A stretch of 64,000 nucleotides of DNA, from contig NBAY01000056.1 in assembly GCA_002794775.1 (NCBI GenBank), forward strand, positions 186,001 to 250,000. Direction: 5' to 3'. Shown here in pieces: positions 5,568-55,423 of this stretch (positions are counted from its first letter, which is position 1; every line of letters starts with the position of its first letter). Source of the stretch: Porodaedalea pini (Eukaryota > Basidiomycota > Agaricomycetes > Hymenochaetales > Hymenochaetaceae). Position numbers and translations under genes: made by a program. Under the pieces are notes generated by a model. That model was not told where the DNA came from. It searched no databases and saw only the letters and a list, made by a program, of their open reading frames with translations.

Positions 5568-5932
5568 TTGAATACTGTGTCAATTCTCTGATCGTTCAGA
5601 CGGATATATGAATACGTTCTAATGTATGTACTAATCGATGCATGTTCTGCGATCGGTAATGCACTTGAGCTATATGATGATGATTTGTTTTGCACATTTG
5701 TTGCTAATTATTGTGCGACACTTCAAAGTTTAATCGGACATTGCACTCAGAATAGCAAGTGTACTATGAGGACATTATTCGAGTTATTTATTTGGGTAAT
5801 GAATATTATCTAGGCACTCTAAAGAGACATTGGAAGGCACGGAGTGATCTAAATTTGAATACAGATCTAGAGATGCATAAGCAATGACTCGAATGCAGAT
5901 GCGGACCCATAGAATTCGACATATCCTCCTCA
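5568..5932. other. 3' flank of ADH copy A, duplicated in copy B up to about 5865
   Basis: An AT-rich spacer. Bases about 5570-5865 are matched, inverted, at about 33200-33498, marking the downstream limit of the ADH duplication. The last ~40 bases resemble 2370-2410 and abut the breakpoint of the FUSC relic. Confidence 0.55.
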
Positions 5933-8887: not shown

Positions 8888-10039
8888 ATGAACGTCTTTC
8901 GTCTCTCCCTGCAGCAGGCGCGTAGGAACGGTCTTTGCGCGTTCACTCAGAATTCATGTCGCTTTCTTTCGACGACACGAGCTCGGTGGTCTGCCGAAGA
9001 CCTCATAGGTGTCAAGGCGTCTCTTCGTGCGAAGTCTGACCCTTCCTTCACGCCGCGGCCTACGTTATTTCAGCGGGAATTCGACCTGACCGGACGTGTC
9101 GCTGTCGTCTCAGGTGCTAATCGAGGTCTAGGCCTTGAAATTGCACAAGCACTCGCGGAAGCTGGTGCAATCGTTCACTGTTTTGACCTTCCCGCTACTC
9201 CAGGGGAAACCTGGGAGGCGGCTGCGGATTATGTTTCAAGGCTTGGGCTTCCCACGGCATGCCTCAAATATGCGAGTCTCAACGTAACCGACCAGTCCGC
9301 GACGTGGGACGCGGTCGAGGGGGTGGCAAATGCAGAAGGTAAACGACTTGATGTGTGCGTCGCAGCAGCGGGGATTATTCAAGGCGCGAGCTGTCTAGAC
9401 TACGCCGCAACGGAATTCTCGAAGGTTTTGAACGTCAATGTAAATGGCGTGTTCTACTTTGCGCAGGCGGCCGCTCGTCAAATAGTGAAGCGCGAGGAAG
9501 GTGGAAGCATTATTCTGATGGGCTCAGCAACCGCGTCGGTGGCGACTATAGTACGTGCTACCACAGCAAATAGTGTTTTCAATGCTAATCATATTTAATC
9601 CGTCAGGGAACTGAAGTTATCGCTTACAGCACGAGCAAATCTGCGGTACTCCAAATGGCGCGTTCTATGGCATGTGAGTTAGGAACAAAGAGGATTAGAG
9701 TCAACTCTCTCTCGCCGGGATATATTCGAACAAAGTGAGTCGCAGTGGTGCATATCTACTTAATAAACCTGTTGATCTAAGTTCTTCATATGTAGTATGA
9801 CGTCTCCGTATCTTGACGCACACCCTGAGCTCAATGCAGCTTGGTCAAGTCAGAATCCTCTCGGGCGCCTTGGAAGGTCGGATGAATTGCGTGGCGCTGC
9901 CGTATGGCTTGCATCCGACGCTTCATCATATTGCACTGGCAGCGAGTGAGTTTTCCGGAGTCTCGACTAGACCGTTTGAATTTGACCTGGCTCGTATTTA
10001 TGCAGTATTCTCGTTTGTGGTGGTCATGTTGCGTGGTAG
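8888..10039 (+). CDS. Short-chain dehydrogenase/reductase, copy A (intact)
   Basis: Classical SDR, predicted 324 residues from four exons: 8888-9550, 9607-9734, 9796-9945 and 10006-10039 (975 nt, in frame). The Rossmann motif SGANRGLG is near residue 75, an AAAGII strand replaces the usual NNAG, a catalytic Ser is in LMGSATAS, the YxxxK pair is in YSTSK, and SPGYIRTNM follows. The end ILVCGGHVAW resembles sorbitol/xylulose-reductase-like fungal SDRs, but the substrate is inferred only. The N-terminal ~35 residues are rich in Arg/Ser/Gln without acidic residues until later, a possible mitochondrial presequence. A decayed copy is at 36127-36543. Confidence 0.9.
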
Positions 10040-15720: not shown

Positions 15721-16132
15721 ACCCGCGCGTAGCCGGTATTAACTAATCTATACAAATGTACACAGAAAAGCGGTATAGGTTAGCAAAAAAAAATTGTATA
15801 GGCTTGAATAACTTACTTAAACAAATATAATTTATTTTGGCTAGATGAGCTAGCCAAAATGTCTGTTTAGTTGTGTGTAGTTACGTTACAATTTTGTGTA
15901 GTTTACTTGCCCTGTATAGGCAAGGTAATCAGATCGTCTAGGTCCGTGTAGCTGACATAATCCGAAGTAGTTATTAACGTAAGTGGGGTAGATAAGATTA
16001 GGATTTACCTTTGCGTAGATCGGCCTCGGGACGACGCGTTCGACTTAGACGCGACGCGCAGCTCCGCGCAGCATATAGACGCCTTGCACCTTGACTCACA
16101 CCACGACATCGCTCGTGGCTTCTCACTCAAAC

Positions 16133-19100: not shown

Positions 19101-20162
19101 TCGAGAGGCTTAACAAGACCCTCAAGAGCTTCAAGACGAACAATCACGGAGGAGGAGAGATCGAGGTCTCCTTCTTCCGTGAGTTCCAGAGGGACGTTCG
19201 CCTTCGGGAGCTCGTCACATTCATATCCCGCGCGGACGCTGAGACCATCGGTAGAGGAGCAGGGGAAACGGCGTGTCTCCTATTGGAGACCGATAGCGAT
19301 AATCGAGGGACCGTAGCTTCGTTATGCCGGGAGATTGATGAGGCAGCAGAAGACGGTCTCTTTTTTTATTTTTATTTTATTTTAAAATTTACTCTCAAGC
19401 TTTTATTAACCATTAAATTTTTAGTTGGGAAGCGTTTCAGCCCCGGCCCAGGCTCCGTCGACCAGCTCACTAACGCTCTGCAGAGGAGCTTGGTCCATTT
19501 TTACAGAAAACATCACAGTTATGCGAACGTTTGCGCTCGTAATGCCGTACTCCCCCCGAATCCCGCAAGCCCACCGAACTTTTTGCTCGACCGTGTGGAG
19601 TACCTGAAATACCTGGTACTCGATGGGAGACGAATCGTCCCATCCTCTGACATATATCATGCGCCGAACTCAATTATCCAGGCCCAACATAATGGAAAAA
19701 AACTTGTCGGCCAAGTCGTGCGCCTCCTCAAACACTCACAACGGCTTATCGAAGGAAGCACTACCCTACTACATGTTCGCTGGTTTTTTCCGCTCGAACC
19801 TGGTGTTCTTAACACCGTAATATGGGACTCATAGTACGTTATATGATTTCGAACATTTTCTTTCGGAACTCCGAATCACTCGTCTCGTTTTTAGCCCCGA
19901 ACTCGAAGAAGGCTTCTTCGAGTTCGACTCCTATCTCAACGACGGGTTGCCAACTCTCATTCTTCCCGACCAGATCATCTCCCAGGCTTGCCGCGTCAGG
20001 ATAGCATACCGGCAGCCTCGCGAATCGGCTGATATCGACGAAGCCGATGATGAGGAGGCGCGTAAAATTTGGGTAACAATTGGTTTAACCAAGGTAAAGT
20101 ATTTATTTCCGTCAATTTATCTACTGACAACGGTTTTATCACAGGATGTACTTACTGTTTAA
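16133..20162 (+). CDS. Tnp2-family transposase of the CACTA element
   Basis: Catalyses excision and integration of the element. Start chosen at the ATG of MARSKTKTNK, a basic N-terminus rich in Asn/Lys followed by a Cys-containing segment, then Gln/Ala-rich and acidic low complexity. About a dozen exons join in frame; the first ends at 16655 and the second runs 16746-17446. Family landmarks are a Cys pair region CPGCRRVFSH..CPDC, the strand LVLGYDGFTFTQSKSG created by splicing near 17447-17553, YRPRYLFLCGISPGPKGP, a zinc-ribbon-like CKLCHAASHAHLTAFCTRC, the VVDPMHNILLG motif (about 18270-18305) holding a catalytic Asp, and PVYGFWTFTFERLNKTLKSF (about 19073-19130). It terminates at 20160-20162. 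No internal stop remains after splicing. Confidence 0.85.
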
Positions 20163-35800: not shown

Positions 35801-36126
35801 ACTTGAAGGGAAGAGCAAGGCATCCAGCGAAAGGACGGAGTCAAATGTTCGCATACGGATGAAACTCGTCAAGCCTAGCAGCCGAAGCCTTCAGGGACTC
35901 TCTAGAGCACATGATTTTCCGGGTTTAAAGTGACTCGCTTGGAAATAGTAAATATTTGTAGTATCTATGTCAATAAGGCTGTGAACTTGTGATGCCGATC
36001 ATCTAGACGAGGGGCAACCCCGACACTGCCGGGACACGTGTTCGACTCGACTTACGCGTCGAGGAGCATGACCCGTACCGTGTCCGTACTGGCAGGGCGA
36101 GTGTAAGGAACCAAACACCTCTTGCC

Positions 36127-36543
36127 CGCGGACTGGTCGATTGCGTCGAGACTCGCATATTTGAGGCATGCCGTGGGAAGCCCAAGCCTTGAAACACAAT
36201 CCACAGCCGCCTCCCAGGTTTCTCCTGGAGTAGCGGGAAGTCAAAACAGTAAACAATTGCACCAGCTTCCGCGAGTGCTTGTGCAATCTCCAGGCCTAGA
36301 CCTCGATTAGCTACCTGAGACGACCGCGACGCGTCCGGCCAGGTCGTATTCCAGCTGAAGTAACGTACTAGGCCGCGGCGTAAAGGAAGGGTCAGACTTC
36401 GCACGAAGAGACGCCTTGACACCTATGGGGTCTTCGACAGACCATCGAGCTTGTGTCGTCGAAAGAAAGCGGCATGAATTCTGAGTGAATGCGCAAAGAC
36501 CGTTCCTACGCGCCTGTTGCAAGGAGAGATGAAAGACGTTCAT
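36127..36543 (-). pseudogene. SDR relic, copy B (frameshifted and 3'-truncated)
   Basis: From ATG at 36543 it follows the SDR at 8888 closely (MNVFHLSLQQARRNGLCAFT). It gains one base in the Rossmann loop (GGTAGCTAATCG instead of GGTGCTAATCG near 36310), which brings TAA into frame. Similarity stops abruptly at about 36127, after NVTDQSA-equivalent sequence, so the catalytic YxxxK region and the rest are absent. Non-functional. Confidence 0.88.
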
Positions 36544-37391
36544 CCTGATAAGGTGCAGGATATGACCTGGAGTGAACATAACAGGCATTGTATGCAGCGG
36601 GCTTAAATAGCACGGATGTTTAGAAGGCTAAACCTATTTGTTGCACGTCAACTGTGCCAAAGAGTAATCTGGTTCGCGCACGTTGACTTCGACAGAATGC
36701 AGATTAACTTCTTGCGGCCTTATCGTGCACAAAAGGAAGTGAAATAACGTAAATGACACGTCCCTCGCATCTAGCCAGAGGGATTTGAGTGCCAAACATC
36801 CCCCAGAAGTGTATTCTATCGCAACGAAGGCGCATTTAGCAAATTGAGCGTTGCATTAGTCGAAATGAGGTGAGCTATCGAGGGCTCAGGTCGATGAAGC
36901 ACGCCTTACCTGCTTCTGAATCTTATCTGAAAGAAACAACGATCTGATAAGCGGATCAGAGCAGCTCCATTAGGACCATTCGAAGGTCGAAACCACTTAC
37001 CATCTATACGGTAGGAAGAAAAAAGTACCCTTATGCATTATCGTGTAGACCAGTGCGTCCTTCAGTACAAAACATTAGTGTTCGCGACGAAAGCAGTGAT
37101 GAAAATACCATCCCGTTGGCTATGTATAAGGGCTCACTCGCTATTATGGCGCAGGCTACGTCCCTTTGAGGTACATGAAAGGGGCATGTGATTCTGTAAC
37201 TGGGAGCTAACAACCAAACATCTGGAAATTTATCAGCTTCGAGGACCTATCTCTGTCATAAGAGAGCTCACTATGCTCGTTTTGCTTCCGCGGTTCCATC
37301 TTGTGAAAGTAGTCCGTGAGTAAGCGATGCCCATTGCGGCCGAAATGGAAAGATGATCGGAAGGAAGTCGTCCGGGTTCTTCAAAATGGCG
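36544..37391. other. Intergenic block B, left of the palindromic element
   Basis: Inverted, near-identical counterpart of about 8035-8887. No gene. It ends at the left target duplication. Confidence 0.7.
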
Positions 37392-37398
37392 CGTATTC
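37392..37398 (+). repeat. Left target-site duplication of palindromic element
   Basis: CGTATTC, repeated at 50259-50265. It can be read as 8 bp (GCGTATTC) if the last base of the right TIR is assigned to the duplication. Confidence 0.85.
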
Positions 37399-37660
37399 CA
37401 CTTCAGGCTACCCCTCTGAGCAGACCAAGTAGGTCTATTCGTACACACAACTAATTGACCATTTAGGTATTGAGCCTGGGCGTGCCCAATCCGCTGGGCA
37501 CTCCCAGTGGGTGCGGGTTGGGTGTGCCCAATTTTTTTTACTGTGGGAAAGTTGGGTGCACCCAGATCATTTGGGCACTCCCAACTGGGCCTGCCCAGTT
37601 TTTGGGCACTCCCAACCGGGCCTGCCCAGTTTTTGGGCACACCCAATTTGTTTTTGCCAT
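37399..37660 (+). repeat. Left terminal inverted repeat and subterminal motif cluster
   Basis: After the CACTTCAGG terminus come several near-palindromic words of the type TTGGGCACTCCCAA and TTGGGTGCACCCAG. The same words make up the internal minisatellite. They are plausible binding sites for a transposase supplied in trans (inference). Confidence 0.7.
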
Positions 37661-38540
37661 AAAATCTAGGGGCTTTATAAATGTTGTATTTTATTGTTTT
37701 TGATCCTACAATTTAGTGATCTTGCTATTGACCATTGGCATGAATTGAATTTTGGTCAAGATTAGTCTGCATCAGACAGGAAAGAATGCTGAGCATGCTA
37801 GACACACAGGACAAAAAGATATTTGTTGCTATTAGAAAGACTAAGATAATAAAAATAATAGAGATAGTATTGAACAGTTCTATATACTGTAAGACAAATG
37901 GAGAAATAGGGAAATTGTACAGCAGTATGAGAGAAATGAAAATAAATATGAGTCAGCTAAAAGTGTAATGACTACTTAAGAAATCATTAATGATATTCTA
38001 ACATTAAACATTGGGAATCAAGCTCCAGCATTCTAACTATATTAGAGAGATTATATGTCATAGGCTCTATGAGAAGTTCTAACTAGAGTGACATAGCTGC
38101 ACTGGACACTTAAGTAGAGCAATTGAAAACTGAACAAGTGCAAAGGTCTGATACATTAGGATTAGTTTGAATGCCCAAGTAGAATAGAGAGTATAAACTA
38201 AGAGGGAAACTGAGATAGAAATGTAGAAAGAGTGTAAGTCCACTAGAGCATTCTTATCATTTCTAACATGTTGCTGACCTTCTGAACATCATAACATAAC
38301 TTTGAGATACTAAGCATCTAACACTCTGAGATACACAAAGTATCAATACAGTGTAAAATCCTAGGATGAAGAGAACAAGAAAGGGAAGAGATTTGAAGTT
38401 AAAATGAAAGAGAGACTTGAAAGCAGTCAGACTTGAGCTGTGCTCAAATATCAGGCCTGGACTACTAAGCTTAAAAGATTAGATATGACTAGTTGACTGT
38501 ATCTAAATCTTTTACAGGTACCTAGTTGAGTATACTCAGT
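37661..38540. other. Left arm, AT-rich segment
   Basis: No gene. Mirrored exactly at 49046-49925. Short frames (for example 37786-37968) are present identically in both arms but lack any domain. Confidence 0.6.
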
Positions 38541-39095
38541 ATACCCAACTATTTGGGAGTGCCCAATTATCTGGGGGTGCCCAATTGGGCACACCCAACT
38601 ATCTGGGGGTGCCCAGTTGGGAGTGCCCAATTATCTGGGGGTGCCCAGTTGGGAGTGCCCAACTATCTGGGGGTGCCCAGTTGGGAGTGCCCAACTATCT
38701 GGGGGTGCCCAATTGGGCACACCCAACTATCTGGGGGGGCCCAGTTGGGAGTGCCCAACTATCTGGGGGAGCCCAATTGGGCACACCCAACTATCTGGGG
38801 GGGCCCAGTCGGGAGTGCCCAACTATCTGGGGGTGCCCAGTTGGGTGCGCCCAACTATCTGGGGGTGCCCAGTTGGGAGTGCCCAACTATCTGGGGGTGC
38901 CCAGTTGGGTGTGCCCAACTATCTGGGAGTGCCCAGTTGGGCACACCCAATTATCTGGGGGTGCCCAACTGGGTGCACCCAACTATCTGGGGGTGCCCAA
39001 CTGGGTGCACCCAATTATCTAGGGGTGCCCAGTTAGGTACATCCAATTATCTGGAGGTGTCCAGTTAGGTACACCCAAATGTCTGAGAGTACCTA
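38541..39095 (+). repeat. 32-bp minisatellite, left arm
   Basis: About 17 head-to-tail units of CAACTATCTGGGGGTGCCCA followed by GTTGGGAGTGCC, with variants at a few positions (GTG/GGG, GAGT/CACA/TGCG). Because 32 is not a multiple of 3, three successive units read through all frames, and all three + strand frames stay open with the same repeating peptide. The open frames are therefore a by-product of the repeat, not evidence for a protein. Mirrored at 48491-49045. Confidence 0.9.
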
Positions 39096-40356
39096 GCTAT
39101 ATAAGGTCTTTTTTGATTCCTGCCTTAGAATCATTTTTTAAAATGCAAAAAATCATTATGTCATGAAAATTAAATAAGTCTAGAATGGAAGCCTTAATAA
39201 TTCTATAGATAATTTCTCAAGCATTTTGTTCTAGACTCTGCATCTTGGCAGCTTTGCTCTGAAGACAAATCAATACACTACAATCATTGACCCGACACCA
39301 GAGCTTCCACAAGATTAAGGACAAGAAAGCATAAAACTTCATTTTGAAGAGATTACCACCCTGCTCCTCAATAGTGCTCTGTATCTTCTCAATTGCATGC
39401 TCAAGACACTCAATTGCTGCATACCGCAAACTCAAAATAAGTATAGAGTGAGACAATTACAACAAACACAGCGCACATTGTCAGTAGCATTTGTACCCAG
39501 CACACAGAGAGGCAGTGAAATGAGCTTTGCCTTGATAGGTACCACCTCAGTGCTCACCACCTCACCTGTCTGATAATATCAATGCCCATGTCCATATAGC
39601 ACATTAACTCAATGTCTGCATGCAGCTTGATTGGCTACAGTAGTTGGCCACCACATGATCATCACCATCAGCTGTGCGAATGTTGCCAGTAACAGCAAGT
39701 TCAACAGCATTGTGAAGACCTTCTCCAGCTCCATCAGTATGAGCTTGAATGCATCATACAGATGGCCATATGTCTTGCCTAGCAGCCACCATCACTATTT
39801 CCTTCTTGTCCTCACCTGTTGCCTCCAGTTTTGCAGGTGTGGTGCTGGACTGGCCCTCAGAGATCTCCTCTGACAAAAGTTTGGATGCAACATGTCATAA
39901 TATGGATGCAACCATCTTCTCTTCACATTTTGTAATGTCCTCCAGTGATACACAACACTTACTCAGATCAAAGTATCCTTCAAGGATAACAAATGAATGA
40001 CTGAGACTGATACAACAGATACAACAAGAGACAGACCCTTCCCCTTGTCCACATGTAGGATGACAATGATCTCTTTCCTTCCAACACAGATCAGCCTTTG
40101 AATTGAACAAGTTCACCTGCAAGAAAGCTCTGAGAGTAGAATCATCCCCTTGATGTTGTCACATTCAACCTGTATATATCATGAATGACAGTCAGTATTA
40201 AGTCGCATCGGCCTCTGACCCGACACTCAAGCCCAAGTTGGACAAATAGTTCAAATCTGTACTCCATGCGGGACTCCACACACCATTAGTACTGTTATTG
40301 AAGTTATAGCTATAATGATAGCTACATGACACCACACACAGTATCTCAAGCATTGG
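39096..40356. other. Left arm, degenerate region of unknown origin
   Basis: On the minus strand there are frames of 60-83 codons separated by stops, including one with a helical, charged segment (IECLEHAIEKIQSTIEEQGG, near 39340-39420). This could be a decayed gene or transposase remnant, but no family is recognised. Mirrored at 47230-48490. Confidence 0.45.
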
Positions 40357-41090
40357 TTCACCAAGTGAGAGTGGCAAGTACAAAAAGCACACTGTCAGCT
40401 CTTCAAGTGGGACAGGCATCGGGTCAGACGACAATGGTGTCTGACGGAAAGCGGAAAAAGCAATGTTCGTTGTGCACTGAGTGCCGCGTGCTGGTGAGCT
40501 GCAATGATCGTGAGAGGGCGGCACACTCCGCACGGCTGCGCCATCTGGCAGCGTAGCAGCACACCTGAGCTCTGTTCGCGAACCCTGCCTTTGTCTGCGT
40601 ACGGCCAAATTCCGGACTATTTGCATCGGACAAGGGTGGACTCGGGAAGTGCATCGCGTCGCGTGCTGCAGATTGTTGGCAGTGAACCAAATGCGATTGT
40701 TGATTCACCAAGTGAGAGCGGCGAGTACGACAGGCAGAATGTCAGTTTTTTGAGCGGAACGGGCATCGGTCAGACAACAATGGTGTCTGTGATGCAAGCG
40801 CGGAAGAAAGGAATGTTTGCTGTGCACTGAGCGCCGCAATGACCGCGAGAGGTGGACCAACAAACGAGAACGGCAACGATCCTGGGGATCAATAGTGGGG
40901 CAGCACGCTCCGCACGGCCGCATCACCTGGCAGCGTCGCAGCATGTCTGAGGTACTCCGTTTGCCATCCCTGCCTTTGTCTGCGCGCGGCCAGACTTCAG
41001 ACTTGCGCCTGCATCTGGCAAGGGTGGACTCGGGAAGTGCCCCGCGTTTGTGCACTGCAGAAACCGGAGACGATCCAAATGCATTCGTAC
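40357..41090 (+). repeat. Tandem duplication of a ~350-385 bp unit, left arm
   Basis: 40357-40703 and 40704-41090 share TTCACCAAGTGAGAG starts, a GGCATCGG.TCAGAC.ACAATG core, GTGCACTGAG, CCTGCCTTTGTCTGCG and CAAGGGTGGACTCGGGAAGT ends, with diverged middles. Mirrored at about 46496-47229. Confidence 0.75.
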
Positions 41091-41145
41091 CCTCGCTTTT
41101 CGTGCGTTGCATGTTGCGTGACTTCTCTTCCTGCGGCAGCGTAGT

Positions 41146-42307
41146 GCTCTTGCCGACCCAGAGACACCACCCTAGGGCATCGCCCAATGCGCGTTAGCAG
41201 CGTTCAACCACGCGTGATGGGACCGGAGAGCTTTGCCCATGCTCGATTCAAATAGCATCGATCCTGTAAGAATCTTGATACCACAACGAGTGCGGCGACG
41301 AAAGTGCGCCGCGGGCGAAGAAGCGGCGATGACAGAGGTGACAGCGGTGTGAACGGTTTTCCAAGGATCTTACGACGCTTGTCGTTAGACTGCCCTTGAG
41401 TCTGCATCTGCTGAGTTAATGGAAGCGAAGTGTCCATATGGTAGACTGTCGGCACGCGCGATGTGTCGGAGGGGTCCATTGACGTCAGCTCTGTCGGAAG
41501 ACCGCAGGGGTTGGACGTGTCCGAAGAGGTATTTGCCTTTGACGAGAGAGACGCCTCGCCTTCCCTCTTATCCAACTCCGGCTCGCCCCTCACTCCCGTG
41601 CTGATCTTCTCCTTCTCCGCGAGCCCCGTCACCTTCCCCCGCACCACCCCGATGTAGCAGAGCGCCGACTGCAGGACGCTACGTCTCGTGCGTGAACGGC
41701 GAGGCGAGTGCGATGCAGTGCGTATGCGACGAAGTGCGCAAGCGTATTCGGTATCACTGGTGCCCCTCCTGATCCTGCCGTTGCGGTAGCGGGGGAACGC
41801 GAGACGACTGCGGTCGAGGACGATGTGGAAGAGGTGGAGGACGACGGAGGAAGGATCTCGGGGCAGTCGAAGGTATGGCTGACGAAGCGCGCGCAGAGCT
41901 TGCTGATGTCTTCGTGCCCGTAGTAAGTGTCGACTGCCGGTGGGGGTGCTGCTGGCGCGGGGTGGTGCGAGTGGTGTGCGCGCGGGACTGCCGATGACTG
42001 TTTTTTTGTCGAGCGTTTTCGGCGCGGTCGGAGGGAAAAAAAAGTGATAGAGAAAAAGACACCGATCAACAGCCGCTCATCACTCAAGTATCAGAGATCG
42101 GGGGGAAAGAGGGGGGATGCTTACAGAACTCGAGGTAGACGCTGCGGCAGCGGCGGACGCAGAAGACGATTTCGCAGGTGGAGGCGGGGCGTACGTCGCG
42201 CGGTGCACGCGCCGGAAGGGCGAGTGGTTCGAGCTGGCACTCGACGGTGATATCGAATGCGGATGCGGATGGGGGTGGGGATGGCGCGGGGCGTGGACGG
42301 TGGCCAT
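41146..42307 (-). pseudogene. Captured PHO85/PCL-type cyclin fragment, left arm copy
   Basis: Mirror of 45279-46440; see that entry for motifs. Sequence appears identical to the right-arm copy. Confidence 0.75.
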
Positions 42308-42631
42308 ATTCGCTGCAGCGGGCTCTCTGGCTCTGGACGTTGACGAGCGTCTGTGAGCGTCGAAGGACAGGTGGAGTTGATGCGTGAGAAGAGGTCGCTG
42401 CGAATGTTTTGATCGGAACGAGATCCTTCTCGGACACAACGGTTGCGTCGCGTTCGCCGGACCGCTCAATGAGAAGGGCGGATGGGAAAACGGCTGACGT
42501 CGATGTTGAAGCGTGTGGATCGTCAAGGGGGGCAGGAGGAAGAGGCGAGGAACACGTGCTGCGTGAACAGGGCGAGGGAAGTTGAACCACACCAGTGCGG
42601 CAGAGACGGAGGGAAGAGTGACCAGCAGAAA

Positions 42632-42834
42632 GGAGCACCCTGCTTCATCGGGAAGCCCTGCTTGTCGTTTCCGCCAGAGACGCGGAAGACGTAGCCCTTG
42701 AACTCATCACCGAGCAAGTCGCTGGGGACACCTGGGACATCTTCTTGCCGTGGAAAATGCGGTAACGACGCTCATCGTCGATGTTGATCGTCTTTTGCTG
42801 GCCCATCGCCAGGTCAGCGATGTCGACACTTCAT
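42632..42834 (-). pseudogene. Captured ribosomal protein eS6 fragment, left arm copy
   Basis: Mirror of 44752-44954; see that entry. Same frame breaks in both arms. Confidence 0.8.
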
Positions 42835-42879
42835 GGCCGGTGGTGTCTTGAGGAGCTCGTCGTGTTCTGTCCCTTCAGG

Positions 42880-43640
42880 CAAGCAAAAAAAAATGATGAA
42901 AAGTAATTATTAGTATATTCAAATAGTTTTTATGATTATTTTTTTTGCTTACCTTGAGTGTGTGGCTGGTGGGACAGCCGTGCTCGTCGTCGATGGTGAA
43001 GACGAAACGACACGAACAACGACGACGCGTTGGTTGTGTTGCCTGATTTGGCTGATCGCCGCGTCTCAAACAAGCAATCAAAGCATTCCGATTCTTTCGG
43101 AAATCTCAAAAGTCTCAGCTGTTGGCCTCAGACAAATTCTACGGACGCGTTTAAAAATACAAAAAAATATGGAATAGTTTTATTATGTATGTATCTATAG
43201 CATAGCTAAGAACTACGCGTCCAGCGCGTTTTTTTATGGAGTCATAAATACAACAGTAATCTTGACATGCAGCACCAGGCCTCCAGAAGCATACACAAAA
43301 GTACAATATACCCTGAAAGGCCTGACACATATTCTATCATGAAGTAAGTGATACATTGTGTATGTATGCAAGGTTTCAAGCCAATCAGACAAGAACTGAC
43401 TTCATGATAGAGAAGGAGGTGGTTTCATGAGATCTTCTGAATCTGAGTGTTTTGTATATCCTGTTCCCAGTTTTTACTTTGAGGGCATATAAAATATTGA
43501 GCATATTTAGGGATATCGTTTTTATGTCTCTGTAAATTTACAGGTATCCAGCCTCAGTGGTTGGAGCTGGGGGAATTGCAAAACATCGAAAATCTTGGGT
43601 TTAAGAGGTTCAGAGAAAGCATATATTCATGTTGTTGCTT
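42880..43640. other. Left arm, inner AT-rich part with nested inverted repeat
   Basis: Includes CTATCATGAAGT at 43334-43345 and its exact inverse at 43399-43410, a small hairpin within each arm. No gene. Mirrored at 43946-44706. Confidence 0.55.
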
Positions 43641-43945
43641 GGTTCAAAGTATGAGAAGCTCAACAAATTTAGTTATTTGTATTTAAGTATGGTCCAAGAA
43701 AGATATCCAACCCTTAGTTTTGTGGGTGAGGCAAAAGTTGGGAATGGGGAGTGAAATGAGAGGTGATGCAGTTCATGTTTTGTGAAACTCGACGCAAATC
43801 CAAGAAACACAGAGCAGTTTTGCATGTATTTCCTCTCCCCCTTCAGAACTTTCCTCTAACTCCGAGATCTAGCACCTGATTACAATTATTGTAGTCATAT
43901 AAAGTACTAATATCTATTTTATAGAGCTTCCTGAAGTTTGGAATA
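43641..43945. other. Unique centre (spacer) of the palindrome
   Basis: 305 bp not shared between the arms. Pairing stops exactly where left 43641 is G and right 43945 is A. The spacer has no recognisable gene; the 60-codon frame across its right edge is not supported. Confidence 0.8.
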
Positions 43946-44751
43946 AAGCAACAACATGAATATATGCTTTCTCTGAACCTCTTAAACCCAAGATTTTCGA
44001 TGTTTTGCAATTCCCCCAGCTCCAACCACTGAGGCTGGATACCTGTAAATTTACAGAGACATAAAAACGATATCCCTAAATATGCTCAATATTTTATATG
44101 CCCTCAAAGTAAAAACTGGGAACAGGATATACAAAACACTCAGATTCAGAAGATCTCATGAAACCACCTCCTTCTCTATCATGAAGTCAGTTCTTGTCTG
44201 ATTGGCTTGAAACCTTGCATACATACACAATGTATCACTTACTTCATGATAGAATATGTGTCAGGCCTTTCAGGGTATATTGTACTTTTGTGTATGCTTC
44301 TGGAGGCCTGGTGCTGCATGTCAAGATTACTGTTGTATTTATGACTCCATAAAAAAACGCGCTGGACGCGTAGTTCTTAGCTATGCTATAGATACATACA
44401 TAATAAAACTATTCCATATTTTTTTGTATTTTTAAACGCGTCCGTAGAATTTGTCTGAGGCCAACAGCTGAGACTTTTGAGATTTCCGAAAGAATCGGAA
44501 TGCTTTGATTGCTTGTTTGAGACGCGGCGATCAGCCAAATCAGGCAACACAACCAACGCGTCGTCGTTGTTCGTGTCGTTTCGTCTTCACCATCGACGAC
44601 GAGCACGGCTGTCCCACCAGCCACACACTCAAGGTAAGCAAAAAAAATAATCATAAAAACTATTTGAATATACTAATAATTACTTTTCATCATTTTTTTT
44701 TGCTTGCCTGAAGGGACAGAACACGACGAGCTCCTCAAGACACCACCGGCC

Positions 44752-44954
44752 ATGAAGTGTCGACATCGCTGACCTGGCGATGGGCCAGCAAAAGACGATC
44801 AACATCGACGATGAGCGTCGTTACCGCATTTTCCACGGCAAGAAGATGTCCCAGGTGTCCCCAGCGACTTGCTCGGTGATGAGTTCAAGGGCTACGTCTT
44901 CCGCGTCTCTGGCGGAAACGACAAGCAGGGCTTCCCGATGAAGCAGGGTGCTCC
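44752..44954 (+). pseudogene. Captured ribosomal protein eS6 (RPS6) fragment, right arm copy
   Basis: Encodes the N-terminal third of the small-subunit protein eS6, recognised by [44 protein letters not shown] and FPMKQG. The reading frame is broken at least twice, just after the ATG-AAG start (one-base shift before DIADLAMGQQK) and between MSQ and the LGDEFKG block. It stops abruptly after FPMKQG. Because eS6 is an essential host gene, this is a transduplicated fragment, not the working copy. No function is expected. Confidence 0.82.
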
Positions 44955-45278
44955 TTTCTGCTGGTCACTCTTCCCTCCGTCTCTGCCGCACTGGTGTGGT
45001 TCAACTTCCCTCGCCCTGTTCACGCAGCACGTGTTCCTCGCCTCTTCCTCCTGCCCCCCTTGACGATCCACACGCTTCAACATCGACGTCAGCCGTTTTC
45101 CCATCCGCCCTTCTCATTGAGCGGTCCGGCGAACGCGACGCAACCGTTGTGTCCGAGAAGGATCTCGTTCCGATCAAAACATTCGCAGCGACCTCTTCTC
45201 ACGCATCAACTCCACCTGTCCTTCGACGCTCACAGACGCTCGTCAACGTCCAGAGCCAGAGAGCCCGCTGCAGCGAAT
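44955..45278 (+). other. Right arm, junction DNA between eS6 and cyclin fragments
   Basis: GC-rich sequence linking the two captured fragments. Frames are open, but no domain is seen. It may be untranslated or promoter DNA captured together with one of the genes. Mirrored at 42308-42631. Confidence 0.45.
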
Positions 45279-46440
45279 ATGGCCACCGTCCACGCCCCGC
45301 GCCATCCCCACCCCCATCCGCATCCGCATTCGATATCACCGTCGAGTGCCAGCTCGAACCACTCGCCCTTCCGGCGCGTGCACCGCGCGACGTACGCCCC
45401 GCCTCCACCTGCGAAATCGTCTTCTGCGTCCGCCGCTGCCGCAGCGTCTACCTCGAGTTCTGTAAGCATCCCCCCTCTTTCCCCCCGATCTCTGATACTT
45501 GAGTGATGAGCGGCTGTTGATCGGTGTCTTTTTCTCTATCACTTTTTTTTCCCTCCGACCGCGCCGAAAACGCTCGACAAAAAAACAGTCATCGGCAGTC
45601 CCGCGCGCACACCACTCGCACCACCCCGCGCCAGCAGCACCCCCACCGGCAGTCGACACTTACTACGGGCACGAAGACATCAGCAAGCTCTGCGCGCGCT
45701 TCGTCAGCCATACCTTCGACTGCCCCGAGATCCTTCCTCCGTCGTCCTCCACCTCTTCCACATCGTCCTCGACCGCAGTCGTCTCGCGTTCCCCCGCTAC
45801 CGCAACGGCAGGATCAGGAGGGGCACCAGTGATACCGAATACGCTTGCGCACTTCGTCGCATACGCACTGCATCGCACTCGCCTCGCCGTTCACGCACGA
45901 GACGTAGCGTCCTGCAGTCGGCGCTCTGCTACATCGGGGTGGTGCGGGGGAAGGTGACGGGGCTCGCGGAGAAGGAGAAGATCAGCACGGGAGTGAGGGG
46001 CGAGCCGGAGTTGGATAAGAGGGAAGGCGAGGCGTCTCTCTCGTCAAAGGCAAATACCTCTTCGGACACGTCCAACCCCTGCGGTCTTCCGACAGAGCTG
46101 ACGTCAATGGACCCCTCCGACACATCGCGCGTGCCGACAGTCTACCATATGGACACTTCGCTTCCATTAACTCAGCAGATGCAGACTCAAGGGCAGTCTA
46201 ACGACAAGCGTCGTAAGATCCTTGGAAAACCGTTCACACCGCTGTCACCTCTGTCATCGCCGCTTCTTCGCCCGCGGCGCACTTTCGTCGCCGCACTCGT
46301 TGTGGTATCAAGATTCTTACAGGATCGATGCTATTTGAATCGAGCATGGGCAAAGCTCTCCGGTCCCATCACGCGTGGTTGAACGCTGCTAACGCGCATT
46401 GGGCGATGCCCTAGGGTGGTGTCTCTGGGTCGGCAAGAGC
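45279..46440 (+). pseudogene. Captured PHO85/PCL-type cyclin gene fragment, right arm copy
   Basis: Starts with a His/Pro-rich exon (MATVHAPRHPHPHP). An intron with GTAAGC donor near 45463 and ACAG acceptor near 45589 can still be drawn, so genomic rather than cDNA sequence was captured. Next comes GHEDISKLCARFV, LAHFVAYALHRTRL, then in a shifted frame LQSALCYIGVVRGKV. After a Ser/Thr-rich insertion comes RTFVAALVVVSRFLQDRCYL plus NRAWAKLSG, and finally GWCLWVGKS. These match the N-terminal cyclin box of fungal PCL cyclins that bind PHO85-type kinases. Frame changes near 45900 and 46370 disable it. Confidence 0.78.
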
Positions 46441-48490
46441 ACTACGCTGCCGCAGGAAGAGAAGTCACGCAACATGCAACGCACGAAAAGCGAGGGTACG
46501 AATGCATTTGGATCGTCTCCGGTTTCTGCAGTGCACAAACGCGGGGCACTTCCCGAGTCCACCCTTGCCAGATGCAGGCGCAAGTCTGAAGTCTGGCCGC
46601 GCGCAGACAAAGGCAGGGATGGCAAACGGAGTACCTCAGACATGCTGCGACGCTGCCAGGTGATGCGGCCGTGCGGAGCGTGCTGCCCCACTATTGATCC
46701 CCAGGATCGTTGCCGTTCTCGTTTGTTGGTCCACCTCTCGCGGTCATTGCGGCGCTCAGTGCACAGCAAACATTCCTTTCTTCCGCGCTTGCATCACAGA
46801 CACCATTGTTGTCTGACCGATGCCCGTTCCGCTCAAAAAACTGACATTCTGCCTGTCGTACTCGCCGCTCTCACTTGGTGAATCAACAATCGCATTTGGT
46901 TCACTGCCAACAATCTGCAGCACGCGACGCGATGCACTTCCCGAGTCCACCCTTGTCCGATGCAAATAGTCCGGAATTTGGCCGTACGCAGACAAAGGCA
47001 GGGTTCGCGAACAGAGCTCAGGTGTGCTGCTACGCTGCCAGATGGCGCAGCCGTGCGGAGTGTGCCGCCCTCTCACGATCATTGCAGCTCACCAGCACGC
47101 GGCACTCAGTGCACAACGAACATTGCTTTTTCCGCTTTCCGTCAGACACCATTGTCGTCTGACCCGATGCCTGTCCCACTTGAAGAGCTGACAGTGTGCT
47201 TTTTGTACTTGCCACTCTCACTTGGTGAACCAATGCTTGAGATACTGTGTGTGGTGTCATGTAGCTATCATTATAGCTATAACTTCAATAACAGTACTAA
47301 TGGTGTGTGGAGTCCCGCATGGAGTACAGATTTGAACTATTTGTCCAACTTGGGCTTGAGTGTCGGGTCAGAGGCCGATGCGACTTAATACTGACTGTCA
47401 TTCATGATATATACAGGTTGAATGTGACAACATCAAGGGGATGATTCTACTCTCAGAGCTTTCTTGCAGGTGAACTTGTTCAATTCAAAGGCTGATCTGT
47501 GTTGGAAGGAAAGAGATCATTGTCATCCTACATGTGGACAAGGGGAAGGGTCTGTCTCTTGTTGTATCTGTTGTATCAGTCTCAGTCATTCATTTGTTAT
47601 CCTTGAAGGATACTTTGATCTGAGTAAGTGTTGTGTATCACTGGAGGACATTACAAAATGTGAAGAGAAGATGGTTGCATCCATATTATGACATGTTGCA
47701 TCCAAACTTTTGTCAGAGGAGATCTCTGAGGGCCAGTCCAGCACCACACCTGCAAAACTGGAGGCAACAGGTGAGGACAAGAAGGAAATAGTGATGGTGG
47801 CTGCTAGGCAAGACATATGGCCATCTGTATGATGCATTCAAGCTCATACTGATGGAGCTGGAGAAGGTCTTCACAATGCTGTTGAACTTGCTGTTACTGG
47901 CAACATTCGCACAGCTGATGGTGATGATCATGTGGTGGCCAACTACTGTAGCCAATCAAGCTGCATGCAGACATTGAGTTAATGTGCTATATGGACATGG
48001 GCATTGATATTATCAGACAGGTGAGGTGGTGAGCACTGAGGTGGTACCTATCAAGGCAAAGCTCATTTCACTGCCTCTCTGTGTGCTGGGTACAAATGCT
48101 ACTGACAATGTGCGCTGTGTTTGTTGTAATTGTCTCACTCTATACTTATTTTGAGTTTGCGGTATGCAGCAATTGAGTGTCTTGAGCATGCAATTGAGAA
48201 GATACAGAGCACTATTGAGGAGCAGGGTGGTAATCTCTTCAAAATGAAGTTTTATGCTTTCTTGTCCTTAATCTTGTGGAAGCTCTGGTGTCGGGTCAAT
48301 GATTGTAGTGTATTGATTTGTCTTCAGAGCAAAGCTGCCAAGATGCAGAGTCTAGAACAAAATGCTTGAGAAATTATCTATAGAATTATTAAGGCTTCCA
48401 TTCTAGACTTATTTAATTTTCATGACATAATGATTTTTTGCATTTTAAAAAATGATTCTAAGGCAGGAATCAAAAAAGACCTTATATAGC
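46441..48490. other. Right arm, tandem unit and degenerate region
   Basis: Exact inverted counterpart of 39096-41145: the ~350-385 bp tandem unit lies at about 46496-47229 and the degenerate region, possibly an old gene, at 47230-48490. No intact gene. Confidence 0.6.
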
Positions 48491-49045
48491 TAGGTACTCT
48501 CAGACATTTGGGTGTACCTAACTGGACACCTCCAGATAATTGGATGTACCTAACTGGGCACCCCTAGATAATTGGGTGCACCCAGTTGGGCACCCCCAGA
48601 TAGTTGGGTGCACCCAGTTGGGCACCCCCAGATAATTGGGTGTGCCCAACTGGGCACTCCCAGATAGTTGGGCACACCCAACTGGGCACCCCCAGATAGT
48701 TGGGCACTCCCAACTGGGCACCCCCAGATAGTTGGGCGCACCCAACTGGGCACCCCCAGATAGTTGGGCACTCCCGACTGGGCCCCCCCAGATAGTTGGG
48801 TGTGCCCAATTGGGCTCCCCCAGATAGTTGGGCACTCCCAACTGGGCCCCCCCAGATAGTTGGGTGTGCCCAATTGGGCACCCCCAGATAGTTGGGCACT
48901 CCCAACTGGGCACCCCCAGATAGTTGGGCACTCCCAACTGGGCACCCCCAGATAATTGGGCACTCCCAACTGGGCACCCCCAGATAGTTGGGTGTGCCCA
49001 ATTGGGCACCCCCAGATAATTGGGCACTCCCAAATAGTTGGGTAT
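48491..49045 (-). repeat. 32-bp minisatellite, right arm
   Basis: Inverted copy of 38541-39095 with the same order of unit variants. Confidence 0.9.
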
Positions 49046-49925
49046 ACTGAGTATACTCAACTAGGTACCTGTAAAAGATTTAGATACAGTCAACTAGTCA
49101 TATCTAATCTTTTAAGCTTAGTAGTCCAGGCCTGATATTTGAGCACAGCTCAAGTCTGACTGCTTTCAAGTCTCTCTTTCATTTTAACTTCAAATCTCTT
49201 CCCTTTCTTGTTCTCTTCATCCTAGGATTTTACACTGTATTGATACTTTGTGTATCTCAGAGTGTTAGATGCTTAGTATCTCAAAGTTATGTTATGATGT
49301 TCAGAAGGTCAGCAACATGTTAGAAATGATAAGAATGCTCTAGTGGACTTACACTCTTTCTACATTTCTATCTCAGTTTCCCTCTTAGTTTATACTCTCT
49401 ATTCTACTTGGGCATTCAAACTAATCCTAATGTATCAGACCTTTGCACTTGTTCAGTTTTCAATTGCTCTACTTAAGTGTCCAGTGCAGCTATGTCACTC
49501 TAGTTAGAACTTCTCATAGAGCCTATGACATATAATCTCTCTAATATAGTTAGAATGCTGGAGCTTGATTCCCAATGTTTAATGTTAGAATATCATTAAT
49601 GATTTCTTAAGTAGTCATTACACTTTTAGCTGACTCATATTTATTTTCATTTCTCTCATACTGCTGTACAATTTCCCTATTTCTCCATTTGTCTTACAGT
49701 ATATAGAACTGTTCAATACTATCTCTATTATTTTTATTATCTTAGTCTTTCTAATAGCAACAAATATCTTTTTGTCCTGTGTGTCTAGCATGCTCAGCAT
49801 TCTTTCCTGTCTGATGCAGACTAATCTTGACCAAAATTCAATTCATGCCAATGGTCAATAGCAAGATCACTAAATTGTAGGATCAAAAACAATAAAATAC
49901 AACATTTATAAAGCCCCTAGATTTT
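49046..49925. other. Right arm, AT-rich segment
   Basis: Inverted copy of 37661-38540; no gene. Confidence 0.6.
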
Positions 49926-50258
49926 ATGGCAAAAACAAATTGGGTGTGCCCAAAAGTCCCCCAGACAGTCAGTGACAGTGACATATCTGGGCACTCCCAG
50001 GGCACTCCCACTGGGTGTGCCCAAAAACTGGGCAGGCCTGGTTGGGAGTGCCCAAAAACTGGGCAGGCCCAGTTGGGAGTGCCCAAATGATCTGGGTGCA
50101 CCCAACTTTCCCACAGTAAAAAAAATTGGGCACACCCAACCCGCACCCACTGGGAGTGCCCAGCGGATTGGGCACACCCAGGCTCAATACCTAAATGGTC
50201 AATTAGTTGTGTGTACGAATAGACCTACTTGGTCTGCTCAGAGGGGTAGCCTGAAGTG
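49926..50258 (-). repeat. Right terminal inverted repeat and subterminal motif cluster, with 71-bp extra sequence
   Basis: Inverted copy of 37399-37660 except for 71 extra bases at about 49950-50020 made of further GGGCACTCCCA-type words and a CAGTCAGTGACAGTGACA segment. Two single-base differences from the left arm are both at CpG. Confidence 0.75.
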
Positions 50259-50265
50259 CGTATTC
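50259..50265 (+). repeat. Right target-site duplication of palindromic element
   Basis: CGTATTC, matching 37392-37398. The sequence beyond it (ATGGAAGCGCACAGGACC) continues the block A empty-site sequence. Confidence 0.85.
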
Positions 50266-51000: not shown

Positions 51001-54000
51001 TTAGACACCGCGCCCAAAGGAACGCTCGTATTCTCCTCTCCATTCCTGGAATCCTTCGAAAGGAATCTCCCCACACAAGTCCTTCGCAATATCATGGAGT
51101 TCATCGAGACACTGCCATTTCAAACAAGACGATAGTCAGCATATCTGAAGCATGAGGAGCCCTTGACCAACTTACGGACGCAACCTGACGTACGGCCGAC
51201 ACAGCAGACGCAAAGTACATAAAGTTGACGTCTTGGATGCGTTCTTCGTAGTCAACAAGCTTCCCGATCACCTCTTCTCGAACACCCGTGTCGTGCTCCA
51301 TATCCGTGTACGCTGTCGAGACAATCGACATCATCGAAGCCTTCGGCTTTGGTTTGAGATGGAGGTGGACCTGGCTGCGAGACCGATTGTCGGGATTTCC
51401 GGATCGGTACGCATCGGAAATAGACACCTTTGAGGGTTTCGATTTCACCTTTGGTTCTGGTTCCGGAAGACGAGAGACGGCGTTTGCATGTGCATGGTGG
51501 TAGAGAAGCCTATCGAGAAGCGAAGAGGGCAAGATTTGATGAAGAGGCTCGCCAGTGCGGAGTGACTGTGAGACGACCGTGAAGACGGACATTACTTCCG
51601 TTATCTAACCAATCCGCAGTCACACTCAGTAGGGAGGTAAAAAGAGAGCTATGAAGACATACGAAGTCTGGATTGAGGACGAGTGTTTCGCGAATAAGTG
51701 ACACTCTCCATGACGGGTCTAAATGGCTTAAAGCGCTCGAGAGCTGTCAAACAAGTCGTGTTAGACAACATGATTTCGAAGGTTGCCAAAGTCATTACCT
51801 GGGTCAATGCCGCGAGGATCTCTCCTTCAAGATTCATCAACCTCTCGTACTCATGAACCGGCCAAGCTCCGCGGATACTCCCCTCCCATTGCGCAGCCTC
51901 GGTCTCAAGATGCAGGCCGCGCAATTGGTTAGCGAGTGGGATCACGCGCTTCCTGAACTCAGCAAACCATTGCGGAACGTACTTGATTTGAGAACGCGCA
52001 GGTGGGTAGCGTGCAGGCAGCTTCTGGCCCTTCTCCTCGTCATTAGTCTGGGTGTTGGTCAGGGAGAGGAAGATCGTCGATGTGCTCGCGAATTTTCCGC
52101 GAATGCGCGTGTACTGCGTTTCCTCCTCGTTGATCCACGACGTCATGAGGAGGGAATACAAGCCCGCGAGATCATTGATAATTGTAGCGTTGTGCACGCG
52201 AACAGCCTTTCGCCCCGATGTTGGCGGAATCATCATCATGACAAATGATGCTCCTCCGCCTATTAGAATTATGACTCTACCGTTCGAAATAATTCGAGAC
52301 AAAGGAGACTGACCAATAAACACTACAACAGCCCGTTTCCAGGCGACAGGCCACCCCACGCCGGGATTACTGACTGTGAAAATCTTCGCATCCAGCCATG
52401 AATAGCCGATTATGAGCGCGATGGTTACCTGGTAAGTTCGTGTAATCAGTTTAGCAACGTTGAATGACGCTTCTTCTCTTCACTTACATTGCACATTAAG
52501 AATGGCATCGAAGAGTGAGTTGGTGCAAAAATTCGAAGATAAAGAATGGGAATTAGGAAAACACCAAGGCTAGCAGCGAGTCCGTAGGGATTTCCATTGC
52601 TGCGAGCGCTACCTGTAAACAAGAAAGCGGTTAGATATATACAATATTAGAAGATGCCAGACAAGCGGAATAAATGACATACCGATGTACCAGATTAAAA
52701 TCCCAAGTACCATGCCCACAACTGTACCGATGAATCGAGCTATCAAGCTGGACATGCCGAAACGAATTAGAGAACAGGTTCGAGAAGATGCATGCAGTAC
52801 CTACTTGTAGAGCTGGTCGGAAGCATAAATATTCATAATAGTCTGCGCCGTGATGAGTGACCTGAAATGATCGTAATCGTCAGCTGCATATATTACAGAG
52901 CGCAGTAGTCCTACCAGACACCCTTTTCGATATAATAGATATCTGAAGTATTCGAAGTTAATGTTAGGTCAGAGCGCAATCACTTGCGTAGGACTTACGC
53001 GCGGATGCAGGAAAAACAGACGGCAGCCAAAGGCAGATGGACACGATGAGATACTTCCAAATATACTAGAATAGGATGACATGTCGGAGAAGAAGTTACA
53101 TCGAGACGGGCGTACTCACAATAGCTTCCTTTGACTTTGCCCATTTGTACAGCGAGTGAACGGAATCCATCGCTTTTTGGAGCAAGTTTGTGGGCGGACG
53201 ACTGTCAGGATCTCGTTCTGTTTCGTGTATCTTGGTCAGCAAAGACTCTCACCAAAATCATTGTTAGACGTACTATAGGGCTTCCCGCTCTTTTCCTGGT
53301 CGGACATGCCGGAGTCAGGACGCGGTCCTTCCCCCATACTCTCGTCAAATCCATCATCCTCCCCATCCTTGCTCCTTCCAATCAACCAATTTCCTACAGC
53401 ACGGAGGTCACGTGGTGCCCACAGCCTGCTCTTCCGGCGCTTCGTGCAGGTGGACCGCACGAGTTCGGCGAGCAGGAGGATCGCATCAGCGACGAACGAC
53501 GAGCTGCGCAGAGAACGTGGAAGCAATGATGAAGGCTCGAAGAGGCGGGGTAGCATGAAGAGCCTTGGTTAGGGATGAGATGGAGAGAGCTGGAATCGCG
53601 GAGACGAAGGGCTCTGCGAGGGAGAGGCGTCCTTCGTTGACGAATGAGGCCCGCTCGTGCCGAAGACTTTCCATGGCAGCGTCCAGCGCTTTCTCGACGT
53701 TCGCGTGAGATTGCGATCTTTGTGACCAAGGCCATCGACGACAGTTTACATCTTCGATGACAGAGAAACAAGCGCCGAGGCTCGTGGTGCAAGCTTCACG
53801 GAGAGGCATTGAAATCGTTCGTAGGCGTGGGAGGGTGGCCGCGAGAGTGAGGTCGCGAGCGTGCCGGGGAGATGAGAACTGCGCGATGAGTCCCGTGTCG
53901 TTCATGCTTTCTGCTTGCGACGATGTAGGGAGAGGTGGCACAGGTGGCTGGTCCGAGAACACTTGAGACGTAGAAGATAACATCGAATGCCACAATGCTG

Positions 54001-55423
54001 AGCGCGAGGAGGGGATAGGGGATGCGTAGTTGGCAACAAGTCGTGGAAAGGCTTGGAACCCACCTGAATAGATAGCAGATATGTCAGTTGTGTTCGGGAA
54101 AACAAAACGTGATCCGGATATGAAGAACCCACTGATTCTTGACACAAGGAGCTTGAGCGGCTCTTCGAGTTTCTTGCAGTCGCTTCCACTCCATCGGCCC
54201 CAACTGAACTCGGCCTCAACAAGTGCATTCCTCAGCATCACTAAACATGAGAAGTATTCAGTGTCGTGCGTCAAAAACCAGCAGATTCTAGAGTAGCGTA
54301 CATCCTTGCAGGCTCATCAATATTCTCCCTCTTAAGCCGGCACTGCGACCAACAGCGCCGCTCTTCTTCTGGACTTCTCCGGCTGTTTGCTCTGGAGGCG
54401 CAGCGAGGATCGCATCCTGGCCCTCGACGTACTTTTGCAACAGCTGAAGGAGCGTGCAAACAGACGTGAGATGCACGTGGCTCATAGTTTCTGGGAAAAT
54501 ACAGAGTATGCAAACCAAGGCTATGGCAACGTAGCAGGCGGTGGAGATGAAGAATGAGGAGACGATTGTATACTGAGCGACTGGGATGAGTGGGCCAATG
54601 GTCTAGATCCTATGCGTCAGAAAGAGTAGTAGCAAGAAAACGGGCTGAGCGCACGCAGAACACATCGGCTGTGATAACGCCGAATACACTGAGCAGGGCG
54701 AATTTCGGAGCATATGCACGGATGGAGGCAAAGAGAATAGTCGCAAATGCGAGAAAGGAACCGTAGACTAAACTCGACCTTCGATATCAGTCAGCTTTGT
54801 TTTGAATGGAGCAGAGAAAAAGAATACACGTACCTCCAGTCCAAGAATGCCCCTTGAAACACATCGAGGTTAAAGATGGCGTCAGGGTTGGCCGCTCCAG
54901 CGGCGCTAAGTACTTCCATGAGCCACCGTCTGATACAGCTATATTGTGATCTTACCTTTCACTAGCACGAAAGAGCTGATCGCTCAGTAGGACCTTGCTA
55001 CGTGCCGCAAGCGACGCGCGCATGGCTGCTACCCCAATGCCCCATCCCATCCCCATACCAACACATATCATCGTCATAAGCTAGAGAGCGAAAGGATGAA
55101 TATGCGTCATACCCCAACAGCTTGAAAGACAAACTCACGAAGATAAACATCTGTATTGGCATACTCGGTGGCACGATGAAAGCGACGACGAGTCCGAAAA
55201 ATCCACTGAAAAAAGGTTATTAAGCCATTCTGGAGATTGAAAACGAGACTCCTTACGCATTTCCTAGCGCCACGGCTGACCTATCCGGTAGTATCAGCAC
55301 AAAGCTGGCCCAAGTCGCTAGCCAGCATCTCGCGACCGTCTTCCAGGCGCGCGGGGACCTAAGGTTCGCCCGAGCCCACGGTGGCAGTAGACCTTCAAGC
55401 TTGTTTAAGACGTTCGGTGTCAT
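51001..55423 (-). CDS. FUSC-type (ArAE-like) membrane transporter, full-length copy B with an apparent 1-bp frame break
   Basis: Many-exon gene. ATG at 55423 (MTPNVLNKLEGLLPPWARAN) leads into membrane segments of the fungal 6-TM N-terminal domain (WLATWASFVLILPDRSAVAL, FGLVVAFIVPPSMPIQMFIF). A long cytosolic linker with helical repeats follows (about 54270-53240), then a second hydrophobic FUSC domain between about 53100 and 52250. A DUF2421-like tail has KVSISDAYRSGNPDNRS and ends RSFGRGV at 51001. The family is linked to export of aromatic acids and related compounds; substrate unknown. At 53489-53500 this copy has GTCGTTCGTCGC (minus strand) where truncated copy A has one base fewer and stays in frame, so copy B would stop early unless this is a sequencing error or is rescued by splicing. 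Confidence 0.72.

Follow-up and report, generated by a model that had tools for sequence, protein, structure and literature searches.

Near-perfect mobile palindromes in the genome of Porodaedalea pini: probable non-autonomous KDZ-type transposons with arms probably kept alike by gene conversion

In a stretch of 64,000 nucleotides of the basidiomycete Porodaedalea pini (the window; positions 186,001 to 250,000 of contig NBAY01000056.1), a near-perfect palindrome occupies positions 37399-50258. This element was followed through the whole genome of 53.3 Mb in 201 contigs, which are labelled C1 and so on; the window is C56:186001-250000, the palindrome is C56:223399-236258, and other elements are designated by the label of their contig. 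The palindrome is probably a non-autonomous transposon of the KDZ (Kyakuja-Dileera-Zisupton) type, moved by the transposase of longer elements and with its arms kept identical by gene conversion. The arms evolve in concert, the exceptions being the element on C40 and three one-sided insertions.

By inverted-repeat comparison, the palindrome described in an earlier note on this DNA was found to be real, with a left arm of 6,250 bp (37399..43648, + strand) and a right arm of 6,321 bp which mirrors it (43938..50258, - strand). Self-comparison of the window showed a perfect core, in which 37631-43648 and 43938-49955 are 100% complementary across 6,018 nt, and the outer 247 bp (37399-37645 versus 50012-50258) are complementary at 99%. 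The right arm exceeds the left by 71 bp, and this excess lies within 31-bp tandem repeats close to the outer end (about 49956-50011), so that the mirror register slips there. The pairing of x with 87586-x given by the earlier note holds from about 37.65 to 43.65 kb and is lost in these outer repeats, and the centre it had put at 305 bp was measured as a loop of 289 bp (43649..43937), which together with its edges is 89-100% conserved across the 14 elements read. Tandem arrays of 31/32-bp units are present in each arm, the 32-bp array being located by self-comparison at 38459..39162 in the left arm (+ strand) and, as its mirror, at 48492..49035 in the right arm (- strand). Both ends carry the same terminus, CACTTCAGG, and direct reading of the flanks showed a matching 7-bp target duplication, CGTATTC, at 37392..37398 and 50259..50265, in keeping with the shared terminus and the 7-8 bp direct repeat noted earlier.

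It is likely that about 50 copies of this mobile palindrome are present in this one genome. The 23-base terminus was found at 65 places with at most 3 mismatches, and a reversed control pattern at none. A genome search with the captured fragment of the ribosomal protein gene eS6 gave at least 113 matches, namely 50 inverted pairs, 7 singles, 1 intact host gene and 5 repeat entries; since the best 150 of 193 candidates were scored, these counts are lower bounds. The palindrome was read through in 14 elements, and for the remaining pairs it was deduced from the mirrored eS6 fragment. All 14 proved to be palindromes, of 10.7-13.3 kb (C45 apart, the right end of which is displaced). For the 22 elements with both ends known, the outer arm lengths match within 6 bp in 13 and within 256 bp in 6 more.

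Furthermore, the idea of a mobile giant palindrome, put forward in the earlier note together with the expectation of other copies flanked by their own duplications, was supported by many such copies. Perfect duplications of 6-8 bp, at differing sites, were observed in 18 of the 22 elements with both ends read; C46 and C20 have 7-bp duplications with one mismatch each, and C14b and C25 lack a duplication. When the two KDZ-bearing elements described below (8 bp each) are included, the count becomes 20 perfect, 2 with one mismatch and 2 without (n = 24), and in the control none of the 552 mismatched flank pairings of these 24 elements reached 6 bp. The perfect duplications measure 7 bp in 10 elements, 8 bp in 9 and 6 bp in 1; the stagger may be variable, or some of the 8-bp cases may be due to chance extension. 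The elements without target duplications, C14:367716-380808 (C14b) and C25:129738-143564, resemble chimeric copies of Galileo and are possible products of exchange between elements.

Within an element, the two arms are nearly the same. Over about 6.2 kb, no substitution distinguishes the left from the right arm in C14a, C45 (its displaced last 36 bp being excluded), C29a, C70, C14b, C42 and C46; one was found in C29b and in C20, 2 in the window copy and in C66, 4 in C120a and 6 in C35. Arm divergence is at most 0.1% in 13 of the 14 elements, and for C144 the left/right BLAST identity was 99.9% over 2.18 kb. Between elements, for which the comparisons were made without the loop, the arms of 11 close elements show 2-33 differences per 4.44 kb (median 16), and C46, C66 and C20 diverge from the window copy by about 6-17% in aligned blocks outside the arrays.

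In the 4.44-kb core of the 11 close elements, 72 columns are variable. In 48 of them the change is symmetric in every carrier, 38 of those being restricted to a single element; arm discordance in the remaining 24 concerns C40 (17), C35 (6) or C120a (1), and never two elements. In a tree of the core (22 rows), the arms of the same element were grouped together or were identical in 10 of 11 elements, the exception being C40. In the inner 1.1 kb of the 14 elements, the left/right differences that are shared are confined to within 162 bp of the loop midpoint. These fixed differences begin 146-162 bp from the midpoint and are common to 13 of the 14 elements, C20 being symmetric slightly nearer to the loop. 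Such shared loop-edge differences indicate that these elements descend from an ancestor that was already palindromic, and on this ground the formation of a separate palindrome at the window insertion was rejected. The earlier suggestion of an element that became palindromic and then inserted was thus too simple, since the arms were still homogenised afterwards.

The arms had been described as gene-bearing, which is correct only insofar as captured host gene fragments are meant; intact genes were considered and rejected, the recognised pieces being fragments of eS6, HSP90 and cyclin genes. In the window copy, the eS6 fragment lies at 42590..42863 in the left arm (- strand) and, by mirror coordinates, at 44723..44996 in the right arm (+ strand). 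It is 90% identical over 229 bp to its host parent, C81:91618-91995, and 83% identical over 46 bp. The cyclin fragment (Cyclin_N, 6.4e-11) lies at 41702..42400 (- strand) and, again by mirror coordinates, at 45186..45884 (+ strand), and is 95.4% identical over 700 bp to a gene on C33, its likely parent. The HSP90 fragment is found in a second class of elements and has its parent at C3:769757-771424, with which it aligns over 1,089 bp, including an intron, at 95.6%.

In C46, an HSP90 insert of 1,081 bp is located inside the captured eS6 piece, where it replaces a few bases and shows a 3-bp match at one junction. The letters and the junctions of this insert are identical in both arms, and the uninterrupted eS6 site is common to the window palindrome and the host eS6 gene. 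A search of the family, in which 83 of 91 candidates were scored, showed HSP90 in both arms of 20 of the 50 eS6 pairs, in neither arm of 30 and in one arm of none. The eS6 copies are spaced by 2,118-2,130 in 27 pairs and by 4,260-4,372 in 17 (the remaining six being 587, 2,568, 3,901, 8,081, 10,065 and 12,333, with 8-12 kb in C3, C78 and C50:67-80 kb); an insert confined to one arm should give a spacing of about 3,200, which was found in 0 of the 50. The loop is common to the classes with and without HSP90; hence, the palindrome predates the HSP90 capture, and the presence of HSP90 in both arms of this older palindrome means that at least one transfer of the piece between the arms must have taken place. 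Together with the private symmetric changes, this indicates that a change in one arm is transferred to its partner.

A genome-wide search for the KDZ transposase domain (PF18758) gave 77 matches, two of which lie inside elements with the terminus of the palindrome. The first, C28:3533-25584, measures 22,052 bp and ends on both sides in the identical 23 bases, with terminal inverted repeats (TIRs) of 4.02 kb at 98.3% identity and a flanking 8-bp duplication, ACTTGTAT. One of its reading frames was recognised by Pfam as KDZ at 2.4e-60 and the preceding frame as CxC1 at 1.5e-6; altogether, nine frames gave one KDZ match, one CxC1/CxC2 match, one match below its cut-off only and six without any. 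The second, C2:501266-530822 (29.6 kb), contains a KDZ domain, has an 8-bp duplication and is identical in the first 18 terminal bases; its terminal few hundred bases are 77% like those in the window, and its TIRs measure about 4 kb at 95-98%. C28 and C2 are colinear across about 13 kb of their interior at 77-86% identity, the KDZ region included, which indicates that the transposase is an integral part of the element and no passenger. The 4-kb TIRs of C28:3533-25584 also hold a mirrored reading frame of 173 amino acids, so that the doubling of arm content is seen in a transposase-bearing element as well.

The window palindrome and C28 are 97% identical over the terminal ~250 bp (left segment 37399..37645, + strand; the same segment on the right at 50012..50258, - strand) and share the tandem arrays more weakly, and C66 resembles C28 further into the outer arm, at 92-97% over about 1.5 kb. 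No PF18758 match was found by the genome-wide search within C56:223399-236258 (75/75 candidates scored), and the window copy is non-autonomous at most; among the ten reading frames of one arm, only eS6 passed the Pfam cut-off. The earlier observation that no transposase is seen in this copy holds in that no KDZ match lies inside it, the MULE, hAT and P families not having been searched genome-wide. The proposal of an undescribed class was not borne out, as the palindrome shares its terminal ~250 bp, CA..TG termini and duplications of 7-8 bp with a KDZ-bearing element of the same genome. A new class with an unknown transposase was rejected for the same reason, the ends being shared with KDZ-bearing elements. 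The palindromes most likely represent non-autonomous members of the KDZ transposons and not a transposon class of their own, and it is likely that the KDZ transposase of the longer elements with the same ends would mobilise them.

Concerning the way in which the arms are kept alike, host gene pieces would enter one arm as filler during break repair, and the captured piece would then be copied from the first arm into the second. This arm-to-arm copying would occur chiefly within the inserted element, through recombination of one arm with the other, rather than at the transposition step. C46 and C20, the duplications of which are mismatched, and C14b, which has none, show 0, 1 and 0 arm differences, respectively, and such near-identical arms in spite of decayed or absent duplications favour copying after insertion. 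When mismatch rates were compared in 12 elements (C14b and C45 left out), 2 mismatches were counted in 87 bp of duplications versus 46 in about 74,400 bp of arms (p = 0.0015), this test being small, post-hoc and based on an approximate arm length. In addition, TIRs that are 14-21 kb apart (C28, C2) have diverged by 1.5-5%, and arms that are 0.3 kb apart by at most 0.1% (13 of 14), a contrast that, differences in age aside, would follow from more frequent conversion between closely spaced arms. We regard gene conversion in place as the best explanation and place most weight there.

Several observations weigh against this reading. Only two or three elements underlie the argument from mismatched duplications, which was framed post hoc. 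The 20 HSP90 carriers go back to one capture by descent, hence they are not 20 independent events, and unpaired HSP90 places were found on C129 and C179. Tandem array lengths differ between the arms by at least 31 bp in 6 of the 14 elements, and single-base insertions or deletions distinguish the arms in 7 of the 14. In a tree of the loop-adjacent region (863 columns, 28 rows), arms paired across elements (C120a with C35, and C42 with the window copy), because two loop-edge sites were included. The arms of C40 differ by 30 substitutions in about 6.2 kb, and for some of the core differences only one of its arms agrees with other elements. Finally, one arm is longer by 5.0 kb in C45, 6.5 kb in C19 and 6.3 kb in C69 (3 of 22 elements), this one-sided lengthening being deduced from coordinates alone; large one-sided insertions of this kind indicate that not everything is copied between the arms.

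The elements concerned can be further described. C40:9399-22106 is the only one of the 14 with many arm differences; a grouping with C45/C29a was obtained for its left arm but not for its right, which makes it a candidate hybrid of two elements or a candidate haplotype switch in the assembly. The one-sided elements are C45:138328-156012, C19:44609-63683 and C69:59507-78735, and their extra length may correspond to nested insertions left uncopied in the other arm.

The discordance between arms is, moreover, all-or-none, 8 of the 11 close elements being at zero in the 4.44-kb core and the others at 1, 6 and 17, which also speaks against conversion in place and fits poorly with steady short-tract conversion (Poisson 3e-6). 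This pattern would be in better agreement with symmetry made during transposition, an excised or replicating element folding into a hairpin in which one arm templates the new copy. The symmetry of changes extends to the loop edge, and the one-sided insertions of 5-6.5 kb, which are apparently post-insertion, stay one-sided; both points are in favour of such a hairpin. Nevertheless, C46, C20 and C14b have 0-1 arm differences despite mismatched or missing duplications, and no KDZ step is known to us that yields a hairpin intermediate; this alternative is considered possible and rather unlikely. The corresponding picture of a self-symmetrising transposon, each move of which would rebuild a perfect mirror image and double any one-arm change or captured gene, is doubtful; we know of no cut-and-paste transposon with a transposition cycle of this kind.

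Gene conversion in place can also be set against the simple youth of a foldback or gene-capturing TIR transposon, the arms of which would be too recent to diverge without any active copying. Many family copies are indeed 99-100% alike and have intact duplications. However, C46, C66 and C20 lie at 6-17% from the window copy and yet their own arms differ by 0-2, 38 private substitutions occupy both arms, and the HSP90 insert is present in both arms as well. One-arm changes shared by descendants, which youth predicts, amounted to 0 in the 4.44-kb core of the 11 elements, and we hold this explanation to be very improbable. An assembly artefact, in which inverted-duplicate reads or polishing created a false palindrome, was rejected as scarcely credible: missed-adapter or foldback reads are known to give rise to perfect palindromes, but a read artefact would mirror the flank, whereas here the flanks are distinct and bear perfect 6-8 bp target duplications in 18 of 22 elements, and polishing would tend to level out the divergence among elements, which persists.

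Long perfect palindromes are normally unstable and soon lost. About 50 likely mobile palindrome copies in one genome constitute a natural system for arm-to-arm copying, with dozens of replicates. The family captures host genes, and the captured pieces are carried in both arms; such inverted copies of the essential genes eS6, HSP90 and cyclin would yield double-stranded RNA if they were transcribed through.

Some features of the neighbourhood in the window were also recorded. A host ABC-transporter frame is closest, among named matches, to proteins of agaricomycetes (Macrolepiota, Hygrophoropsis, Hericium and others) at about 60-65% identity, with metagenome proteins reaching 86%, which makes an agaricomycete host likely. 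A short-chain dehydrogenase frame (PF00106) lies at 8855-9598 (+ strand), and a broken copy that looks similar by eye lies at 36003-36588 (- strand), adjoining the left flank of the palindrome. The frames at 5881-6747 (+ strand) and 53486-54313 (- strand) are similar by eye; the second was recognised as ArAE_2_N (PF10337, 1.7e-7), no Pfam match was obtained for the first, and the pair looks like a duplicated transporter fragment on either side of the palindrome. At 16079-19834 (+ strand), frames were observed that resemble by eye a fungal DNA-transposon protein set, and three of them gave no Pfam match.

When compared with known systems, the palindrome is foldback-like in that its long inverted arms form most of the element and contain internal tandem repeats. 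The Drosophila FB family is characterised by a 9-bp target duplication; here, duplications of 6-8 bp were found in 18 of 22 elements and none of 9 bp. The foldback-like elements Galileo, FB4 (PMC8277862) and Tetris likewise have long TIRs with internal tandem repeats which account for most of the non-autonomous element. In Galileo, the duplications measure 7 bp, 12 chimeric copies lack a matching pair, the TIRs reach about 1.25 kb, and the copy with the longest TIRs shows 95.2% identity between them (PMC3573991). In contrast, the arms of the present palindromes are longer by a factor of five, their divergence does not exceed 0.1% in 13 of 14 elements, and the elements are likely to depend on a KDZ transposase and not on one of the P type.

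With respect to KDZ transposons, Kyakuja elements have 7-bp duplications and CA..TG termini, a Dileera family has 8 bp and Zisupton 8 bp, and TIRs are absent in Kyakuja-1/2_LB (PMC12730594); in Cryptococcus, KDZ1 is ~11 kb long, its TIRs measure 241 bp and its duplications 8 bp, and duplications of 4-8 bp are described for KDZ2/3 (PMC12810828). The elements described here are similar in their CA..TG termini and 7-8 bp duplications, and in the KDZ and CxC1 domains of the long element with the same ends. Unlike these KDZ transposons, with TIRs ranging from absent to 241 bp, the transposase-bearing elements here have TIRs of about 4 kb, and those of the palindromes measure about 6.2 kb and make up some 97% of the element. 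Among the matches listed in a literature search, no palindromic KDZ derivative was found.

As in Pack-TIR and Pack-MULE elements, for which a filler model has been proposed (PMC8277862), host gene pieces are captured, intron included, with a small deletion and a 3-bp junction match; the eS6, HSP90 and cyclin fragments inside the palindromes have likely parents on C81, C3 and C33. The captured piece here, unlike theirs, is present in both arms with the same junctions. Mammalian sex-chromosome palindromes have an arm identity above 99% that is kept by arm-to-arm gene conversion (PMC8981503), but these are chromosomal structures, whereas the palindrome described here is a mobile element with 50 inverted pairs. 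A multi-copy mobile palindrome with 6-kb arms evolving nearly as one and with doubled gene pieces was not found in the literature, among the matches listed. KDZ transposons, repeat-bearing foldback elements, gene-capturing elements and gene-converting palindromes are each known (PMC12730594, PMC12810828, PMC3573991, PMC8277862, PMC8981503).

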